IMG/VR virus record: IMGVR_UViG_3300009788_000125
Location: 1-51,765 of that record
Source: a virus
Reading direction: 5' to 3' (one strand)
Length of the DNA: 51,765 bases
Part shown: piece after piece, positions 15,622 to 29,738 of the stretch
How the letters are laid out: each line of letters begins with the position of its first letter
How positions within the stretch are numbered: position 1 is the first letter of the stretch
The notes under the pieces: model-generated
Told to the model about the DNA's origin: nothing
What the model saw: the letters and a program-made list of their open reading frames with translations, nothing else
Databases searched by the model: none
Made by a program: the position numbers and the translations under genes

Positions 15622-15659
15622 ACAGAGGCCAGCGACGTGACGATCACAAGGGAGTGTGC

Positions 15660-15878
15660 ATGACCATAGGAGACAGGCTGCGAGCGTGGCGGGAGCACCG
15701 GGGTTACAGCCAGGCGCAGATCGCCTGCTACCTCGAACTGGAGGACAAGGGCAGTATCAGTCGGTGGGAGCGGGGCACCCGCAGGCCGACCGGCTACTAC
15801 CTGCAGCGGGTCCAGGACCTGATGGAGCGGGCGGACCTGCCGAGGTGGGCCGTCGACCTCCGGAGCAAGACGGCATGA
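15660..15878 (+). CDS. XRE-family helix-turn-helix regulator
   Basis: This 72-residue protein is a single Cro/C1-type domain: GDRLRAWREHRGYSQAQIACYLELEDKGSISRWERG, with the helix-turn-helix at about residues 17-38 and the typical 'SQxxxA...SxSxWERG' pattern. It is the only clear transcription regulator in the window. The ATG at 15660 has AAGGGAG at about 15648. It probably binds the palindrome in its own promoter, and perhaps the half-site blocks in P1-P4. It lacks a dimerisation or cleavage domain, so it is Cro-like in size. Confidence 0.88.
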   Translation: MTIGDRLRAWREHRGYSQAQIACYLELEDKGSISRWERGTRRPTGYYLQRVQDLMERADLPRWAVDLRSKTA

Positions 15879-16135
15879 AGGCCGGCGGCTGGTACGCGGC
15901 TGGCCTGGTGATGATCCTGGGGGCCGTGACGCTCCTGGTGACCGACCACGGGCTCGCGGGGACGGTGTACACCTGCATGGGCCTGGGGCTCCTGTTCGCG
16001 GCGAACGGCATCGAGGAGCGCCTGGCCAAGCGCCGGGTGCGGGACGCCATCCGTGAGAACGCGCAGTGCTGCTACGCTCCCGCTTGTGTCCTTGAGAAGG
16101 GGCACGTCGGCCTGCATCAGGTAATGAAATCATGA
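15875..16135 (+). CDS. two-span membrane protein with GHxGxH zinc module
   Basis: An 86-residue protein with two membrane segments (about residues 5-23 and 28-45) and a cytoplasmic or external tail that ends in CCYAPACVLEKGHVGLH, one copy of the C...C...GHxGxH module found many times further downstream. ATGA coupling to the XRE gene. Possible envelope-directed accessory protein, for example superinfection exclusion, but this is a guess. Confidence 0.7.
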   Translation: MKAGGWYAAGLVMILGAVTLLVTDHGLAGTVYTCMGLGLLFAANGIEERLAKRRVRDAIRENAQCCYAPACVLEKGHVGLHQVMKS

Positions 16136-20001: not shown

Positions 20002-20342
20002 GCCGGCCGAGCGACCAGTGGCGAGCGACGGTGCAGCGCGTGGTCGATGCCTACAACGCCATCGCTCCGCACCTCGACGACGCGATCACGCTCGAGGACA
20101 GCGACAAGTCATTCAGCGCCAAGCGGGACGAGCTATGGGCAGCCGTGATGGCGCTCAACATCGCAACCCGGCCGAGAGCCGAGCACCACTACCAGGCCGT
20201 GGAAATCCTCGAGGGGCTGATCGAGGTCGAGATGGGACCGATCCACCCGGTCGGCCAGGACGACTTCGGGGCGGTGTGCATCTGCTGGTACTGCCGAGCC
20301 AAGCGGTTTGTCGGCAAGCCCGAGGGGTGGGTGCCGGCATGA
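19998..20342 (+). CDS. hypothetical protein with C-terminal Cys motif
   Basis: A 114-residue, mainly helical protein (RATVQRVVDAYNAIAPHLDD) ending in VCICWYCRAKRF, a possible small metal site. It is coupled by ATGA to both neighbours and lies directly before a methyltransferase gene, so it may assist it; that is only contextual. Confidence 0.66.
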   Translation: MSRPSDQWRATVQRVVDAYNAIAPHLDDAITLEDSDKSFSAKRDELWAAVMALNIATRPRAEHHYQAVEILEGLIEVEMGPIHPVGQDDFGAVCICWYCRAKRFVGKPEGWVPA

Positions 20343-21364
20343 TGCTGGTGCGATCCGACGCCCGGCAGATCCCGTTAAGGGACGGCAGTGTGCAGTGCTG
20401 TGTCACGTCGCCGCCGTATTGGGGGCTGCGGGATTATGGGGCGGACGCACAGCTCGGGCTCGAAGCCACGCCCGACGAGTACGTTGCCAATATGGTCGAG
20501 GTGTTCCGCGAGGTGCGACGGGCGCTACGAGATGACGGGACGCTGTGGCTGAACCTGGGGGATAGCTACGCTGGATCGTGGGGAGCGCAGAGCAGGGGCG
20601 GCCCCCCGAGCGACAAGAGTACGCTGGTCGGCAACGGGCATGTCGGTGGCGGTCCGAAACTCCACAACCTCAGCGCCACGCAGATTGCAGCGCACCCGGA
20701 CACCACGCACACCGGCAGCATCTCCAGGACCCCTGGCCTCAAGCCCAAGGACCTCGTCGGCATCCCGTGGCGTGTCGCGTTCGCCCTCCAGGCGGACGGC
20801 TGGTATCTCCGCAGCGACATCATCTGGGCGAAGCCGAATCCCATGCCGGAGAGCGTGACCGACAGGCCAACGAAGGCACACGAGTACCTGTTCCTACTGG
20901 CGAAATCGCAGCGGTACTACTACGACGCGGAGGCGATTGCGGAGGCGTCATTCGCCAAGAGCGCCCACGACCAATACGGAACGGGCTGCCTAGCGCCTGG
21001 GCAGACACGGCAGAGTGGCAATCGCCATCGCAGGATCGGTGCTGAACACGGCCGCCCCGGCCACCACCGCGGCAGCTCGGTGCCGTGGGCAGGCAGCACT
21101 AGAAACCGCCGTACCGTATGGACGGTCGCCACGCAGCCATACAGCGGCGCCCATTTCGCCACGTTCCCTCCGAAGCTGATCGAGCCATGCATCCGGGCCG
21201 GCAGCCCGGTGGGTGGTGTGGTGCTCGATCCATTCGTCGGCAGCGGCACTACCTGCGTGGTGGCGACGCAGAACAACCGCCACGGCATCGGGCTGGACCT
21301 TGCCTACCAGGACCTGGCGATGGAGCGCACACGCGAGGTCCAGCGGCGACTGGTGGGGGCATGA
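20339..21364 (+). CDS. beta-class DNA methyltransferase (N4-C or N6-A)
   Basis: This 341-residue enzyme transfers a methyl group from S-adenosylmethionine to the amino group of cytosine or adenine in DNA. The catalytic motif TSPPYWGLRDYG (SPPYW at 24-28) comes first and the cofactor motif DPFVGSGTT (about 297-305) last, the beta-class order. Between them are GTLWLNLGDSYAG, GIPWRVAFALQADGWYLRSD and IIWAKPNPMPES, all standard. The target site cannot be read from the sequence. It probably protects phage DNA from host restriction; no partner restriction gene is seen. Confidence 0.88.
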   Translation: MMLVRSDARQIPLRDGSVQCCVTSPPYWGLRDYGADAQLGLEATPDEYVANMVEVFREVRRALRDDGTLWLNLGDSYAGSWGAQSRGGPPSDKSTLVGNGHVGGGPKLHNLSATQIAAHPDTTHTGSISRTPGLKPKDLVGIPWRVAFALQADGWYLRSDIIWAKPNPMPESVTDRPTKAHEYLFLLAKSQRYYYDAEAIAEASFAKSAHDQYGTGCLAPGQTRQSGNRHRRIGAEHGRPGHHRGSSVPWAGSTRNRRTVWTVATQPYSGAHFATFPPKLIEPCIRAGSPVGGVVLDPFVGSGTTCVVATQNNRHGIGLDLAYQDLAMERTREVQRRLVGA

Positions 21365-21711
21365 CCTTCGACAACGACGTCAAGCGGATCCAGGAGCGCA
21401 TGCTGGCGCAGTTCGGGCGGCACGTGGACACGCTGATCCGGGATTGCCTGGGGGTGGTGGTGGAGCCCGAGACTTCGGCGCTGACATACGAGAGCCTGCG
21501 TAGGGCGGCCGACCGGTTGACCACGACGATTCATTGCCAAGCCAAGCACGCAGACGGAGTCAGGGCGGCGGTCAAGGACCGGCCGTGGATCACGGTGCAC
21601 ACCAACCCGTACATGAGCGAGAACCTGCTGCTGATCCTGACGCCGAAGCCGGATCCGTGGGAGGTGCCCGACGTCCAGGTCGTCGAGATCGCGGTGGAGG
21701 GCGACGCGTAA
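21361..21711 (+). CDS. hypothetical protein
   Basis: A 116-residue protein, ATGA-coupled to the methyltransferase gene. Helical N-terminus (DVKRIQERMLAQFGRHVDTL), then a strand-rich end (PWITVHTNPYMSENLLLILT). Not recognised. Confidence 0.66.
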   Translation: MTFDNDVKRIQERMLAQFGRHVDTLIRDCLGVVVEPETSALTYESLRRAADRLTTTIHCQAKHADGVRAAVKDRPWITVHTNPYMSENLLLILTPKPDPWEVPDVQVVEIAVEGDA

Positions 21712-21920
21712 TGTCGCAGAGAATCTGCCGTGGCCTGGGCGACCACATGGGCTGCCGCGGTGTGACGCTTCACCTGGACGGGCGGATCACGCTGGCACCA
21801 GCCAAGCACCCGGCGAGCGTGAAGCCGCAGCATCGGGTCTGGTGCGACGAGTGCGAGGCGGAGCGCAAGCGGCGCATCACCGAGCAGATGAAGGGGCTCG
21901 CGGCCAGGCTCGGCTTATGA
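21711..21920 (+). CDS. small zinc-finger-like protein
   Basis: A 69-residue protein with cysteines in ICRGLGDHMGCRG and RVWCDECEAER, a split zinc site, followed by a basic helix. Coupled to both neighbours. Possibly nucleic-acid binding. Confidence 0.66.
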   Translation: MSQRICRGLGDHMGCRGVTLHLDGRITLAPAKHPASVKPQHRVWCDECEAERKRRITEQMKGLAARLGL

Positions 21921-22336
21921 CGCCGGTGAGGCAGCGGAGTGGATTCGTGTGCATGGACAAGCGGCAGGACGACCCGTGCTCTCACGGGGCGATGGCTGCC
22001 CGTGGCCGGTGCGTGCGGCACTACGAGCGGTACAGGTCCAGGGCGAAGCGGGACGGCACGTGGGTGCCCAGGGCATGCGGCGGAAACAGTGCCTACCGAC
22101 GGGTGGGCGATGACCTGCGGATCCAGCTACGGCCTGGACGGAGCACGTACTCGTGGCTGCGGGAGCTAAGTGCTCGGATGCACCGGCTGTCGCAGAGCAT
22201 GCAGGAGGGCGGCGACTACATCGACGCGGTGCTCAACCAGATACAGATCAAGGCGGAGCGTGGTACTATGCAGCCCGGAAAACCGACGCACAAACAGGGC
22301 GACCGAGCCCGAAAAGGGAGCGAGCATGAGCGGTAA
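21917..22336 (+). CDS. basic Cys/His protein
   Basis: A 139-residue protein with a Cys/His cluster at residues about 12-36 (CMDKRQDDPCSHGAMAARGR then CVRHYERYR), a pattern seen in small phage zinc-binding proteins, followed by a basic helical region. ATGA-coupled. Function unknown. Confidence 0.66.
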   Translation: MTPVRQRSGFVCMDKRQDDPCSHGAMAARGRCVRHYERYRSRAKRDGTWVPRACGGNSAYRRVGDDLRIQLRPGRSTYSWLRELSARMHRLSQSMQEGGDYIDAVLNQIQIKAERGTMQPGKPTHKQGDRARKGSEHER

Positions 22337-22955
22337 CAGGGAGAAAATCACCACCAAGGTCGAGAGCTTGGGCGGGCACATTCGGGTCAAGGCCGACATC
22401 AGCATCGACAAGCGGCTGATCACGCACTACCGGGTGGCGAGCCAGAACCGGGCTGCGGAGGAGTGCAGCGACTTGCTCAAGGATGCCGTCCAGGCGGCGT
22501 TGGGCGAGCTACACGAGCGGTTCGAGAAGAGCGGCGCCCGCAAGGTAGCCCGAGCGAATGCGGCCGAGCTGAAGGGGCGTGAGGCCCGAGCGGGTATCGA
22601 CCACGCGGCCAACAGTGGCCGGGTGACGGACGACAGCGTGGACGGCATGGCTCCCCGCGGCGAGCGCAACGAGGGCGAGGTCGGCTACCTCCGCGACGAC
22701 GAGGGCAAGCCCAAGAGGGACGAGGACGGTGCGGTGATGATGGCCGGGTCGGCTGGCGTGGGCGGCAGCGGCACGCTGAGCACCGACGACCCTGGCGTCA
22801 TCGAGGTAGGGAGCGCCGTGGTGTTCGACTACGAGGGCCAGGACGTGGTGGGCGAGGTCACGAGCGTACAGGGCGGCGTTGCCGATGTGACGGCCGGGGA
22901 GTCGGAGTACTCGGTGCTGGTGGGCGACCTGAAGCTGGCCGACCTGGAGGGCTGA
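22326..22955 (+). CDS. hypothetical protein, acidic C-terminal domain
   Basis: A 209-residue protein. Residues 1-75 are a mixed domain (KITTKVESLGGHIRVKADIS, then helix). Residues about 95-150 are polar and probably disordered. The last 55 residues form a small beta domain (VGSAVVFDYEGQDVVGEVTS, SEYSVLVGDLKLADLEG) like an SH3-type barrel. Possibly a chaperone or binding protein. It overlaps the previous gene by 11 bases. Confidence 0.68.
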   Translation: MSGNREKITTKVESLGGHIRVKADISIDKRLITHYRVASQNRAAEECSDLLKDAVQAALGELHERFEKSGARKVARANAAELKGREARAGIDHAANSGRVTDDSVDGMAPRGERNEGEVGYLRDDEGKPKRDEDGAVMMAGSAGVGGSGTLSTDDPGVIEVGSAVVFDYEGQDVVGEVTSVQGGVADVTAGESEYSVLVGDLKLADLEG

Positions 22956-22957
22956 GC

Positions 22958-24949
22958 GTGGCCAGGGGTGACGCGTTCAGGGAGTGCGAGGCGATACAGG
23001 ACGACGACCAGGATTGCGTGCGGGAGGACGGCCATGAGGGTCCGCACGTAATCCTGTTCCCCCGTGGCCGGTGCGGGGACGTGAGCGACTACGGGGGGCA
23101 ATCGTTCCAGTGTCAGCAGGAGCGGGGGCACGACGGGGCCCACACCTGGACGATGCGGCTGCCGGCGGAGCCCGATGTTCCCCGTGGAACAATCCGCAAC
23201 GACGACGTGGGTCACGGGCCGACCTGCGCGTGCGTGCTCTGCATCGTGCGCCGGGGCTGCGGGGCCGTAGAGGACGGCTGTGACCCGAAGTACACAGTAC
23301 GGGAGGAGCCCAAGCCGTCTGGACAGTGCTTGATAGAGGTATCGGGCGCTGCCGGCCTGTACCGCTGCGAGTTCAGCGGGAGCCATATGGGGCTGCACAG
23401 CAAGCAGGTGGGGCCCGAGGCGTGGGCGTGGCCGGCGGTGGATGCCAAGTGGTGCCGGGCGGTGGTGGTGGACATCGAGCGCCAGGCGTATGCCTGCGGC
23501 CGGGACGACGGGCACGACGGGGTACACGAGACCCTGGACGGCAAGTGGTGGGCGAACTCTCGGCTGCCGCGGCCGGAGCCCGGGTCGCGATACACAGCCG
23601 ACGATTTAAGGTCAGCAGAGGAGATGGGGTATGAGCGGGCTCGGGGCCGGTGCGAGGTGGCCCCGTGCGGGCGGCTGCAAGGGCACGAGGGTCTACATAC
23701 CCAGGACAAGCTGTACGTGGAGGACGAGAACGGCATCGGCCTCAGCCGGGTGAACTTCGAGCCGCAATGCGGCGGGAAGCTGAGTAGGTCCGGCCCGCTG
23801 CGGTGCACCAGGGCCTTCGCCCACCACGGCCCGTGCCAGCACATCCCGACGCTGGCTACCACCAGGCTGGAGGGGTTCGGGAACGCAGGCAATCGTTGCG
23901 AGGCCGTGCAGAACGACAGGCGGCGCTGCGAGAAAGCCAAGGGGCACAAGGGCTGGCACCAGGTTCCACCAGGCGGTGCCTGGACGATGGAGCAGGATCT
24001 GGACCACGACCAGGTGGACGAGCCCGAGGCGCTGATGTGCGGGGAGCTATTCATGCTGGCCCTGGCTGGTCCGTACCGGTGTGAGCTATCACGGGGGCAC
24101 GACGGCGACCACGCGCTCGAGAGCGGCAGCGGCCAGGACGAGGCGGAGGAGCGCGAGAAGGGGCGCACGCCAGGGACGTACAACCCCCAGACCCTGGAGC
24201 GGTATCCTGGCAGGCTGGACGAGGTGGACGACCAGTGCGACGAGCAGGTCGCGTCCGACACGAGCATCGACGGCTTCCTGTTCTGCCGGTTCCGCCGAGG
24301 GCACGGCGGGGAGCACCAGGCGGACGAATCGTGTGTCCAGGAGGAGGCGTGTCGGTTCCGGAGCGGGCACGACGGTGATTGCCACCCCATGGTGGACGAG
24401 GCAGGCACACAGGCGTCGCTGAGTTCTGGCCTTTTCGGTGCGGACCTAGACGCAGCGCGGCCTACAGACTCCCCTCCCGAGACTCCCTGCGGCATCTGTT
24501 ACGCCTGGGTCCTGGGAGACCACCACGGCCGCAAGGGTCGCTACTGCACCAGGCCCTCGGGCCACACCGGGGAGCACCGGGAGAAGGCAGGCAGGTCGGT
24601 TCCCCATCGCCAGGACGGCCTGGCCTGCAAGGACCACGGGTTCGACTGCCCACCGCTGAGTCGCATGTGTGGGGAGGCCCCGAACTGCACCCTGACGAAG
24701 GGCCACGAAGGGGAGCACGTGGACTGCAGCGACCAGGAGCCCGAGGCGAGCCTGTTCGGCGCCGGGCCGTGCGGGTGGCTCCTGATGGGCGAGGGAAGCT
24801 CGCGGTGCGACCAGCCCGTAGGCCACGACGGCATGCACGCAGGCCCTGAGGAACCGGCTCTCGAGAATGCCCCGTGCGGGAACGAGGACGGCTGCGGGTT
24901 CGTGTGTGCGCTGGCCAAGGGCCACGGGGGGCTCCATGCCAGCTTCTGA
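22958..24949 (+). CDS. 14-module tandem zinc-knuckle protein
   Basis: A 663-residue protein made of about 14 copies of a Cys/His module, C-x(3-17)-C-x(3-4)-G-H-x-G-x-H, for example C10-C20-H26-H30 and C39-C52-H58-H62. Clear copies read GHEGPH, GHDGAH, SHMGLH, GHDGVH, GHEGLH, GHKGWH, GHDGDH, GHGGEH, GHTGEH, GHEGEH, GHDGMH and GHGGLH. Four ligands per module are right for one zinc each. Linkers are variable and acidic, so the protein is a chain of small domains, not a rigid repeat. Single copies occur in actinobacterial and phage proteins; I know of no described array of this length. GTG start at 22958. Role unknown. Confidence 0.82.
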   Translation: MARGDAFRECEAIQDDDQDCVREDGHEGPHVILFPRGRCGDVSDYGGQSFQCQQERGHDGAHTWTMRLPAEPDVPRGTIRNDDVGHGPTCACVLCIVRRGCGAVEDGCDPKYTVREEPKPSGQCLIEVSGAAGLYRCEFSGSHMGLHSKQVGPEAWAWPAVDAKWCRAVVVDIERQAYACGRDDGHDGVHETLDGKWWANSRLPRPEPGSRYTADDLRSAEEMGYERARGRCEVAPCGRLQGHEGLHTQDKLYVEDENGIGLSRVNFEPQCGGKLSRSGPLRCTRAFAHHGPCQHIPTLATTRLEGFGNAGNRCEAVQNDRRRCEKAKGHKGWHQVPPGGAWTMEQDLDHDQVDEPEALMCGELFMLALAGPYRCELSRGHDGDHALESGSGQDEAEEREKGRTPGTYNPQTLERYPGRLDEVDDQCDEQVASDTSIDGFLFCRFRRGHGGEHQADESCVQEEACRFRSGHDGDCHPMVDEAGTQASLSSGLFGADLDAARPTDSPPETPCGICYAWVLGDHHGRKGRYCTRPSGHTGEHREKAGRSVPHRQDGLACKDHGFDCPPLSRMCGEAPNCTLTKGHEGEHVDCSDQEPEASLFGAGPCGWLLMGEGSSRCDQPVGHDGMHAGPEEPALENAPCGNEDGCGFVCALAKGHGGLHASF

Positions 24950-25244
24950 CGCGCAGGAGGAGGTGACAAGGCAATTGGTCGAGTCGGCCCTGTGGGACCA
25001 GGCGAACCTGGCCGCGACCGAGATGCCAGGGCGCTGCCAGGGAACGGTACTCGGGAAGCTGCGCTGCACGAACTGGTTCGACGCGCCAGGCCACTGCCGG
25101 CACAAGTGGGATCCCGAGGCTGCGGCCTTCTGGGCGGAATCGCATGGCCGTACTCCAGAAGCGCGGCCCACATGCCTCCCTGCCCACAGACCCTCCTGTG
25201 CCCTTGAGAGTGGACACCAGGGCGACTGCCAGAGGCCCACATGA
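24936..25244 (+). CDS. zinc-module protein, two copies
   Basis: A 102-residue protein carrying two diverged copies of the same module: CQGTVLGKLRCTNWFDAPGH with a following CRHK, and CLPAHRPSCALESGHQGDC. It overlaps the 14-module gene by 14 bases in another frame and is ATGA-coupled to the next. Probably a paralogue produced by local duplication. Confidence 0.7.
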   Translation: MPASDAQEEVTRQLVESALWDQANLAATEMPGRCQGTVLGKLRCTNWFDAPGHCRHKWDPEAAAFWAESHGRTPEARPTCLPAHRPSCALESGHQGDCQRPT

Positions 25245-25546
25245 GCCGCTGCTGGTTCCCCGGAGACTCCCTCGTCGTGGCCGGATGGGCGCAGTGCCGC
25301 CTCAAGAACGGACACCAGGGCCGACACGCCGTCCCACAGCTCCCCCGCTACCCACGCGCCTCCACCTGCAACGAGCCCCTGTACGACGGCAAGGGCCGCT
25401 GCGCACGCTACCCCGACCACGAGGGCGCCTGCTCCGAAGGGCCCATGGTGCGGACCCTCTGTGAGGCCACGCACCAGGCAGGCGCTACCTGTAGACGACC
25501 ACAGGCACACCTGGGCAAGCACCGGAAGGGCAACCTGCGGTGGTAG
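25241..25546 (+). CDS. zinc-module protein, three copies
   Basis: A 101-residue protein with three modules: CWFPGDSLVVAGWAQC...GHQGRH, CNEPLYDGKGRC...DHEGAC, and CEATHQAGATC...HLGKH. Basic overall, unlike the acidic 14-module protein. Same operon and same module type. Confidence 0.72.
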   Translation: MSRCWFPGDSLVVAGWAQCRLKNGHQGRHAVPQLPRYPRASTCNEPLYDGKGRCARYPDHEGACSEGPMVRTLCEATHQAGATCRRPQAHLGKHRKGNLRW

Positions 25547-26024: not shown

Positions 26025-27290
26025 ATGAGCGACGGCGACCAGAAGGGGCGAACCGACACACCGGCCCCAGGTGAGGCGATCGACGACCACGTATCAGCGG
26101 TCGAGGACGGGTCCGATCGGGGCACCGAGGGCGGGCAGGGAGGCTCTCCTGGGGGGGGAGGGGCACCCCCCGAGGTCCCTTCGGATGACCAGGGGCCCCA
26201 ACACACCCACCACACGGGCCCGACTCCCTCAGCCCGAGTAGGCCAGGCGTGCACAGCCTGCACGCTTGGAACCTGCAACCGCGGGGACCACCAGCGGGCG
26301 AGGGACGAGCAGTTCAATCGGGAGTACGAGAACCGGGCAGAACCGCCAGATCGGAGCCGGGTGCACAGCGCCGCACCGGTAGGCCAGGCGCCCCAGATCA
26401 CGAGAGCGGGCGTGCCATGCCATGTGCCGGAGTGCGACCTGGACGACCACACGGGGGAGCACCGGGTGCTGGCCACCGCGGACGAGAGCCGCATGGATCC
26501 CCATCAGGCGGGCCTGGCGGCGGCGTGCACGGGGTGCGGTGGTCTGGCGGGGACGCATTTCCCGATGTGTCCCGGCCCGAGGCCCCTCCCGGTAGAGACG
26601 CCCGAGGAGGCGATGGGGCGTCTGGTTGCGATGGATAACGACCCGACGATGAACTGGCGGCGCATGAAGGCAGCCCTGCTTGGGGCCCTGGAGGTACAGC
26701 GGCAGGCTCCGCCTCTGGACCCACGGGCGAAGTACCGGAGCGTGGCGAAGTTCCCGGCGGACGAGGTGGACCAGACCCTGCCGAAGATGCCTGGGCACCG
26801 GTACAGCGCCGGGGTGTTGGATGCGGAGGCGGTGGTCGAGGTAGGCCGGACGGCCATAGACCCAGATGCCGAGTCGCCACCAGCGGGCCATGAGTGCATT
26901 CCGGAGTGTCAGTCTGGCCTACACGCGGTCAGGTTCCCCGGCCTGGAGTTCGAGGAGCGGGTACGGGCAGCCGGCATCACCTTCCTCGACGAGGGCGAGT
27001 ACCGTGAGGCCCAGGTAGGCCAGGGGGGAGATTCTAAGACAAGAATAAGAAAGGACCCCCAGGTAGGCCAAGTGGTCCAGGGTGGCCCAGAGTGGTCCGG
27101 AGAGGACCTGGCCCCTGGGGTACGGGTAGGCCACGGGGAGGCGGGGAAGGGTGGGGATGGCCGCGCACCCGCGGCGCCGACTCCGGAGGAGAGCGACGCC
27201 TTGCTTGAGGAGTTCTGTCCGCAGTACGGTAGACGGCGAACGGCCTGCCCGTGCGACGGGTGCCGCGAGGACCGGAAGGGGAAGCCATGA
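26025..27290 (+). CDS. disordered zinc-module protein with repeated VGQ motifs
   Basis: A 421-residue hydrophilic protein. It has diverged Cys/His modules (CTACTLGTCNRGDHQ, CHVPECDLDDHTGEH, CTGCGGLAGTHFPMC, CIPECQSGLH) and a closing CPCDGCRED. Between them are Pro/Gly/Asp-rich, probably disordered stretches with repeated VGQ, VGR and VGH tripeptides, always encoded GTA-GGC-C. The ATG at 26025 is chosen for CGGAGG at 26013-26018; ATG 26004 is an alternative. It ends in an ATGA overlap with the ParB-methyltransferase gene. Function unknown. Confidence 0.65.
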   Translation: MSDGDQKGRTDTPAPGEAIDDHVSAVEDGSDRGTEGGQGGSPGGGGAPPEVPSDDQGPQHTHHTGPTPSARVGQACTACTLGTCNRGDHQRARDEQFNREYENRAEPPDRSRVHSAAPVGQAPQITRAGVPCHVPECDLDDHTGEHRVLATADESRMDPHQAGLAAACTGCGGLAGTHFPMCPGPRPLPVETPEEAMGRLVAMDNDPTMNWRRMKAALLGALEVQRQAPPLDPRAKYRSVAKFPADEVDQTLPKMPGHRYSAGVLDAEAVVEVGRTAIDPDAESPPAGHECIPECQSGLHAVRFPGLEFEERVRAAGITFLDEGEYREAQVGQGGDSKTRIRKDPQVGQVVQGGPEWSGEDLAPGVRVGHGEAGKGGDGRAPAAPTPEESDALLEEFCPQYGRRRTACPCDGCREDRKGKP

Positions 27291-27400
27291 GCGACGAGGA
27301 ACAGCCGGCCTGGGAGGGTGAGCACGCACCAGTAGGCCAGCCCGGCGACAAATCCGACGGGAATTCTGGAATTGATTCCGAGGGATCGGTAGGCCAGGCG
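26238..27400 (+). repeat. eight-copy GTAGGCC direct motif cluster
   Basis: GTAGGCC followed by A or G occurs at 26238, 26379, 26841, 27015, 27063, 27126, 27332 and 27389, all on the same strand and in frame over two consecutive genes. The constant use of the rare Val codon GTA in a GC-rich genome suggests selection on the DNA motif. Confidence 0.75.
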
Positions 27401-28864
27401 GGACCGGAGTACTCGGGCTCGCTGGAGGTGCGGACGGGCGACGTGGTGGACCGGGTGGCGTCGTGGGTCACCTGGCCCCTCGACAAGGTGCTCGACGCGG
27501 CGGCGCCGTACAACCCGAGGGTGATGCCGGCGGACGAGATGACGGCCCTGCAGGCGAGCCTCAAGCAGTTCGGTGCCCTGCAGCCAGTGATCGTCAACAC
27601 GCGGACGGGGAACTGCGTCGGTGGGCACCAGCGGGCGGTGGCGGCGAAGCGGCTCGGGTGGAAGACGTTCCCGGTGATCCTGGTGGACATGGACGAAGCC
27701 GACGAGATGGAAGCCAACCTGGCCCTGAACAAGATCAGCGGCCATTGGGACAACCCGGCACTCGCCAAGGTCCTCCTGGATATCCGTAGCCGGCGTGGCG
27801 AGGTGAACCTGGCGACCGGGTTCACGACGAACGAGGTGGACAAGCTCGTCGAGCGGTACCGCGAGGGAGCCGAGGAGGAACGCAAGCGCGTGGCCTACCG
27901 GAGTCTGGCCAGCCGGTTCGCGGTGCCACCGTTTTCGATCTTCGACGCCCGTCAGGGCTACTGGCAAGACCGCAAGCGGACGTGGATGCAGCTCGGGGTA
28001 CACGACGCCGAGGACGGCGGCGACGGGCTGGAGTCGAGAATCCACGCCGGCATGGAGGAAATCAACCAACGCTGCCAGGGCGGGGCGCTACTGAAAACGA
28101 CCCACATCAGCGGCTACGAGCCCGTCCTCGGTGAGATTCTGTGCCGCTGGTTCTGCCCACCCGGCGGGACCATCGTCGACCCGACCGCGGGCGGCGTGAC
28201 CTGGGGCATCGTCGCCGCCATCACCGGGCGCCGCTACTACGGCATCGAGATCCGCAAGGACCAGGTCGTGGCCAACGACAAGCGATGGGACGAGGTGGGC
28301 CGGCTGGTACTCGACAACGGCAAGCCCCTCGTGGACAACATCAACCACCAACCGGAGTGGATTCACGGCGACGCCACCAAGGTGAGCCCCGAGCTGCAGG
28401 AGGACATGGTCGACATCGATTTCATCCTCAACTGTCCGCCCTACCACGACCTCGAGAAGTACTCCGACCAGGCCGGCGACCTGAGCAACCAGGCGAGCTA
28501 TGGCGACTTCGTCGTCCAGCTTCGCATGATGTACCGCCACCTGATCCGGAAGCTCAAGAAAAACCGATTCGCGGCCGTTGTTATCGGTGATATACGCGAC
28601 GAGCAGGGCCGTTATCGCGGCCTGCATCACGACATCGCGACCCTGTTCCGGGAGGCCGGCATGCACCTCTACAACGACGCCGTGCTCGTCACCGCCATCG
28701 GCAGCCTGCCGTTCCGGACACGCCGAGCCTTCGAGAGCAGCCGGAAGCTTGGCAAGGCGCACCAGAATGTGATGGTGTTCGTGAAGGGCGACCCGAAGCT
28801 GGCAGCCGAGGCGGTCGGAGAGATTGACGTAGCCGCCGAGCCGTTGCCGGAGGAGGCTGAGTGA
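27287..28864 (+). CDS. ParB-like nuclease domain fused to DNA methyltransferase
   Basis: A 525-residue fusion. Residues about 1-50 are polar. Residues about 79-170 form a ParB/Srx-like domain (MTALQASLKQFGALQPVIVN, NCVGGHQRAVAAKRLGW, AFNLALNKI-like helix). Then comes FSIFDARQGYWQDRKRTW, a hallmark linker of phage ParB-methyltransferases. The methyltransferase domain has the cofactor motif DPTAGGVTWG (about 298) and catalytic NCPPYHDLEKYSDQ (382-386 NCPPY). Such proteins methylate phage DNA and may mark or protect it. Strong ATGA coupling to the previous gene. Confidence 0.85.
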   Translation: MSDEEQPAWEGEHAPVGQPGDKSDGNSGIDSEGSVGQAGPEYSGSLEVRTGDVVDRVASWVTWPLDKVLDAAAPYNPRVMPADEMTALQASLKQFGALQPVIVNTRTGNCVGGHQRAVAAKRLGWKTFPVILVDMDEADEMEANLALNKISGHWDNPALAKVLLDIRSRRGEVNLATGFTTNEVDKLVERYREGAEEERKRVAYRSLASRFAVPPFSIFDARQGYWQDRKRTWMQLGVHDAEDGGDGLESRIHAGMEEINQRCQGGALLKTTHISGYEPVLGEILCRWFCPPGGTIVDPTAGGVTWGIVAAITGRRYYGIEIRKDQVVANDKRWDEVGRLVLDNGKPLVDNINHQPEWIHGDATKVSPELQEDMVDIDFILNCPPYHDLEKYSDQAGDLSNQASYGDFVVQLRMMYRHLIRKLKKNRFAAVVIGDIRDEQGRYRGLHHDIATLFREAGMHLYNDAVLVTAIGSLPFRTRRAFESSRKLGKAHQNVMVFVKGDPKLAAEAVGEIDVAAEPLPEEAE

Positions 28865-29662: not shown

Positions 29663-29738
29663 TGCGCCGTAGTGCAGCGGCAAGCACGCCTGGCTCATAA
29701 CCAGGAGGTCGTGGGTTCGAGTCCCACCGGCGCCACCA
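29663..29738 (+). tRNA. tRNA with anticodon CAU (Met or Ile2)
   Basis: A 76-base cloverleaf: acceptor 29663-29669 with 29728-29734, D stem GTGC/GCAC, anticodon stem CCTGG/CCAGG with loop CTCATAA (CAU), T arm GTGGG-TTCGAGT-CCCAC, and an encoded CCA (29736-29738). The first acceptor pair is a U-C mismatch. An unpaired 1-72 is typical of initiator tRNAs, but the D stem has U11-A24, an elongator feature. Lysidine-modified Ile2 is the other option. It could supply a scarce tRNA or help late translation. Confidence 0.88.

Follow-up and report, generated by a model that had tools for sequence, protein, structure and literature searches.

A tailed-phage protein with fourteen tandem copies of an uncatalogued, putatively metal-binding Cys/His module

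Why would a phage string fourteen copies of a small cysteine- and histidine-containing module along a single protein, and what could such a chain bind? The question is raised by an open reading frame (ORF) at 22958..24949 (plus strand) of IMG/VR record IMGVR_UViG_3300009788_000125, a 51,765-base viral contig that was analysed over its whole length and is hereafter called the window. The contig has a tailed-phage gene set, including terminase (30277), portal (31752), head morphogenesis (33922), protease-capsid fusion (36018) and tape measure (43198) genes. Re-read from the DNA, the open frame encodes 663 amino acids from a GTG start, which follows the stop of the previous gene and is preceded by a GGAGG-like site. 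Its GC content by codon position (0.71/0.52/0.85) is like that of the terminase, portal, helicase and tape-measure genes of the same phage.

The encoded protein contains fourteen units of the form C-x(4-18)-C-x4-[GSA]HxGx[HC], all on the plus strand. The first half of the array comprises module 1 (22985..23047, C-x9-C-x4-GHEGPH), module 2 (23072..23143, GHDGAH), module 3 (23327..23398, SHMGLH, the top match to the family profile at 26 bits), module 4 (23453..23527, GHDGVH, the query of the structure prediction), module 5 (23651..23698, GHEGLH, with a short C-x4-C), module 6 (23768..23836, AHHGPC, with Cys as final ligand) and module 7 (23897..23959, GHKGWH, with the downstream Trp retained). 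It continues with module 8 (24038..24112, GHDGDH), module 9 (24236..24316, GHGGEH), module 10 (24332..24382, GHDGDC, again ending in Cys), module 11 (24488..24577, GHTGEH), module 12 (24668..24718, GHEGEH), module 13 (24770..24838, GHDGMH) and module 14 (24875..24937, GHGGLH), three residues before the C terminus. Eleven units carry an exact GHxGxH, and the other three (modules 3, 6 and 10) deviate from the family ligand pattern C-x(3-21)-C-x4-GHxGxH by Ser or Ala for Gly or by Cys for the last His. The family has a Trp 4-12 residues after the last His, and a nearby Trp follows only modules 2, 3, 4 and 7 here; two of the search patterns themselves included this residue. The array is confirmed as real and not a chance pattern: 20,000 residue shuffles of the protein give a mean of 0.011 modules and a maximum of 2, against the 14 observed, and at the DNA level the window has 13 matches to the module pattern where 0.03 would be expected.

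The initial annotation had described fourteen modules in an acidic 663-residue chain with unrelated linkers, and its count, coordinates, chain length and acidity (pI 5.2, net charge about -40) were right, as were the linkers, which are 6-62 residues long and mutually unrelated in sequence. Its assignment of two Cys and two His to every module holds for 12 of the 14 and fails for modules 6 and 10. The ORF does hold the fourteen modules that it reported, but further copies lie outside it: two looser modules (25035-25103 and 25173-25229) in the overlapping downstream ORF (24936..25244, plus strand), three more (25250-25327, 25367-25432 and 25460-25522) in a third ORF joined by an ATGA overlap (25241..25546, plus strand), and a single terminal module, CVLEKGHVGLH (16085-16117), in a distant ORF (15656..16120, plus strand). 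The array protein has 40 Cys and 35 His in its 663 residues (6% Cys) and no recognisable domain besides the modules, a Pfam search giving no family at E 1.

Some features of the linkers fall outside the module pattern. The Cys cluster HGPTCACVLCIVRRGCGAVEDGC (23213..23281, plus strand, residues 86-108) is a candidate extra metal site, and the Cys/His cluster CKDHGFDC (24626-24649) may be a further one. Two linkers (24419-24460 and 24740-24770, about residues 488-494 and 595-602) share [SE]x[SG]LFGA, which faintly resembles a sliding-clamp motif; beta-clamp-like SLF motifs were rejected as an explanation, since these two copies are accompanied by no enrichment across the module family.

Judged by its sequence conservation, the module is a real and widespread phage domain, a case for which conservation among phages is the stronger argument and the AlphaFold2 model described below the weaker. 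Pattern scans of IMG/VR returned at least about 250 loci, and a family alignment was made of 114 modules from IMG/VR loci and a few genome loci, with the window left out. The initial annotation had proposed a profile search built from the modules, and such a search reveals a real family: the profile of the 114 modules from other phages detects 10 of the 14 array modules. The wider pattern is C-x(3-21)-C-x4-GHxGxH-x(4-12)-W, with a consensus of roughly C-G-A-x(n)-C-x-[LRK]-P-x-G-H-[DE]-G-x-H-x-D-x-x-G-x-x-W, in which the residues that defined the search are necessarily invariant. The first Cys lay outside the single-module search pattern, yet 169 of the 196 distinct matches have it upstream, whereas 41 of 196 have any Cys in a downstream stretch of equal length. 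Fold-type positions are conserved in the family alignment, partly circularly for the searched residues, and the other positions carry little information. Among the hosts of module-bearing phages are Gordonia, Mycobacterium and Microbacterium, and a search of genomes across the phylum gave matches at E 1e-4 in 9 of 296, each with a single module match. In L128, L131, L141, L164 and L179 the last His is followed by CxCG, as in GHDGKHICECGVMW, a sub-type that suggests a variant with extra ligands.

The module appears to be uncatalogued. Neither Pfam nor NCBIfam has a model of it, PDB sequences searched with the module profile gave chance matches only, and a literature search found no published description of the motif. 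In PHROGs it occurs inside families of unknown function, and all carriers met in annotated phage records are labelled hypothetical. A resemblance to the GRF-type zinc finger of APE2 (PDB 5u6z) was rejected, as the match (E 0.44) has another ligand order and vanished with a larger profile.

Structure prediction is suggestive of a compact metal-binding fold. AlphaFold2, run on module 4 with 72 family rows, gave a 42-residue fold of two beta-hairpins (strands 10-12, 18-20, 30-32 and 38-40) and no helix, with a pLDDT of 86.7 and a pTM of 0.59. The initial annotation had suggested a structure prediction of one module, and a compact module is predicted with fair confidence, a score that is weak evidence for short Cys/His peptides: in one study, AlphaFold 3 confidently predicted 88% of random 27-residue Cys/His sequences (PMC12383448), and we discount the confidence accordingly. 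Searched against a viral structure library, the model matches uncharacterised proteins of Gordonia phages Danyall, Catfish, Bizzy and Clown and of Microbacterium phages Terij and Jayden with probabilities of 0.94-1.00 and E-values of 0.2 to 1, the latter because the query is so short; a fold search against the PDB gave no match. A two-module model is of low confidence (pLDDT 63), with low linker scores. Each module would fold as two beta-hairpins held together by a single metal ion (probably zinc) with Cys2His2 or Cys3His ligands, and the segment from the first Cys to the second would form a variable loop.

To judge how exceptional the size of the array is, we sampled, among the matches listed, 168 other module ORFs from 153 contigs, found with patterns that required one canonical module. 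One module is carried by 136 of these ORFs, in keeping with the earlier remark that single modules are familiar, two by 26, three by 4, four by 1 and eight by 1. Arrays are therefore a thin tail of the size distribution, of which the fourteen-module string is the longest among the matches listed: a record, but not unique. The initial claim that no comparable array had been described holds for size and not for kind, given the eight modules of L178 (3865-4944 of IMGVR_UViG_3300005467_000022) and the four of L143 (5281-6528). Other ORFs of the L178 contig give two more module matches; in L143 the modules surround a long probable coiled coil, and two further module ORFs lie on the contig. In bacterial genomes the tandem pattern yields true modules only in pairs (Frankia, Pseudofrankia, Actinoplanes and Streptomyces), among the matches listed. 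Searched whole, the array protein has no match in viral contigs and, in phage records, only E 5-9 matches to one- and two-module proteins.

The array does not look recently made. Identity at the variable core positions is 0.109 within the window, 0.100 between the window and other modules and 0.118 +/- 0.020 in random sets of 14 drawn from other phages. At the DNA level the repeats that link array modules are short and imperfect, none exceeding 76% over about 41 bases. Recent tandem duplication is rejected on these grounds, and the array appears to be old or else assembled from unlike modules. Small module genes might have been fused or duplicated serially and then drifted, leaving an array length with no selected role. 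The tail of sizes (1, 2, 3, 4, 8, 14) and the two overlapping downstream module ORFs, as if fusion came easily, are what such neutral accretion would produce; we consider it improbable, however, since the ligand set is complete in each of the 14 modules along the 663-residue chain, in a phage whose genome is compact, and the gene has a normal coding signature.

Four module-bearing proteins have an identifiable partner domain, and in all four it is a DNA enzyme. L017 and L160 are RecT/Bet annealing proteins with modules after the annealing domain, L159 is an endonuclease VII with a C-terminal module and L148 is an HNH nuclease with an N-terminal module within a strongly basic stretch. The fusions tie the module to DNA metabolism, either as a DNA binder or as a binder of partner proteins. 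If each module contacts DNA or RNA, the array could make long, multivalent contacts like many-fingered zinc-finger proteins, a reading we keep as a candidate because of these fusions, the basic surroundings of the nuclease-fused module and the helicases, exonucleases and methyltransferases encoded next to module genes. It is nonetheless rather unlikely for a chain with a net charge of about -40 in which 11 of the 14 modules have no net positive charge. Across the 114 family modules the mean net charge is -0.8, only 25% reach +2 or more, and the alignment has no conserved basic surface positions.

The acidic chain and the lack of a shared basic surface lead us to favour protein partners over nucleic acid for the array, and there is a precedent: the C-terminal domain of lambda Red-beta binds the exonuclease and SSB, not DNA (PMC8303780), so that annealing proteins can bear protein-binding tails. 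We tentatively prefer, at something short of even confidence, the reading that the array protein is a flexible multi-site binding scaffold, with protein partners more probable than nucleic acid. The family keeps its fold residues and varies its surface, a pattern that suggests a generic clamp presenting varied binding loops. Single modules on RecT-type annealing proteins and on HNH/endonuclease VII nucleases would then plausibly be targeting appendages, and fourteen unlike modules on one presumably flexible acidic chain, with further copies in the next two overlapping ORFs, could gather or tie up several protein partners during infection, most likely DNA-metabolism proteins of host or phage. 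Against this scaffold counts the equal compatibility of the DNA-enzyme fusions with nucleic-acid binding. A broader version, in which the module is a general phage binding mini-domain and the array a fourteen-headed adaptor that recruits or disables many host proteins at once, strikes us as unlikely.

Of the functions first guessed for the protein, a scaffold fits best and a zinc sponge poorly. A store that buffers or withholds zinc in infection could draw on fourteen predicted sites and a Cys-rich linker, with 40 Cys and 35 His in all, and would agree with conservation limited to ligands and fold residues. The site density is only about one per 47 residues, whereas that of metallothioneins is roughly one per 9, and storage gives no account of the single-module fusions to DNA enzymes; we regard it as very unlikely. 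The many sites might instead titrate a single type of host factor, for instance a regulatory protein or one involved in defence, as a decoy or sink, with multivalency on a single chain and a position among methyltransferase genes before the terminase in its favour. A single target predicts contact surfaces that are alike, yet the window modules resemble each other no more than random ones do and individually span net charges of -6 to +4, and we give this little credence.

The array is flanked by a DNA methyltransferase (20336-21361) and a gene whose product fuses a ParB N-terminal domain to an N6/N4 DNA methyltransferase (27251-28864). The gene directly upstream (22326..22955, plus strand) has a weak HAS-barrel match below the cut-off and is likely co-transcribed. 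Also upstream, at 21711-22336, are two small Cys-rich ORFs with a Cys/His spacing different from that of the module. The stretch from 21.7 to 27.3 kb has a GC content above most of the remaining window. Where 0.8 copies of the 8-mer GTAGGCCA would be expected, the window has 11, and seven plus-strand copies lie in 26238-27396, beside and within the start of the ParB-domain methyltransferase gene; this cluster may possibly represent binding or methylation sites. A tRNA-Met gene (CAT anticodon, 29663-29738), the sole tRNA found in the window, lies shortly before the terminase. No close relative of the phage was found in the collections searched. Relatives sought with the terminase and methyltransferase are distant (nearest terminase 31% identical), and none of those loci has strict modules. 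Helicase, capsid and methyltransferase matches scatter over many phyla and indicate no single host.

The fourteen-copy protein offers a handle for finding the binding partners of the module, and the fusions to annealing proteins and nucleases make the binding question testable in laboratory phages of Gordonia and Mycobacterium smegmatis. If the array is a binding scaffold, the module would amount to a small natural domain that displays loops from a metal clamp.

Among known systems, classical C2H2 arrays (PF00096 type) likewise repeat units with two Cys and two His, but the array differs in its C-x(4-18)-C-x5-H-x3-H spacing, its helix-less all-beta prediction and its acidic chain; with no Pfam match, no C-x2-4-C-x12-H-x3-5-H spacing and no helix in the model, a classical zinc finger was rejected. 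Metallothioneins also hold many metal-ligand residues in a single protein. They have about one-third Cys and CxC motifs, whereas the array protein is a long chain with 40 Cys in 663 residues and ordered modules with Gly and Trp at structural positions, and this assignment was rejected too. L017, L160, L159 and L148 carry the same module once or twice at a terminus, appended to a catalytic or DNA-binding domain, unlike the array protein, which has no other recognisable domain. PHROG 21374, of unknown function, bears the module in its C-terminal part; the E-value of its match is 3.6e-7 for the array protein and 4.8e-8 for L178. The match to the array protein spans profile positions 276-333 (about 58) of 340; the remainder of the family is missing from the array protein, which shows no full-length similarity to it. 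The L178 protein, like the array, is an acidic chain (pI 5.8) of tandem copies of the same module, eight in number. It differs in being about half as long, with Trp in most modules and several HxxPH variants; the sequence match between the two is confined to the modules. Its gene lies near a large gene that reads, by inspection and without a family search, as a primase-helicase. Both small zinc modules and zinc arrays in tandem belong to kinds already known; the novelty lies in the module itself, an uncatalogued one from phages, and in its fourteenfold use in one array.
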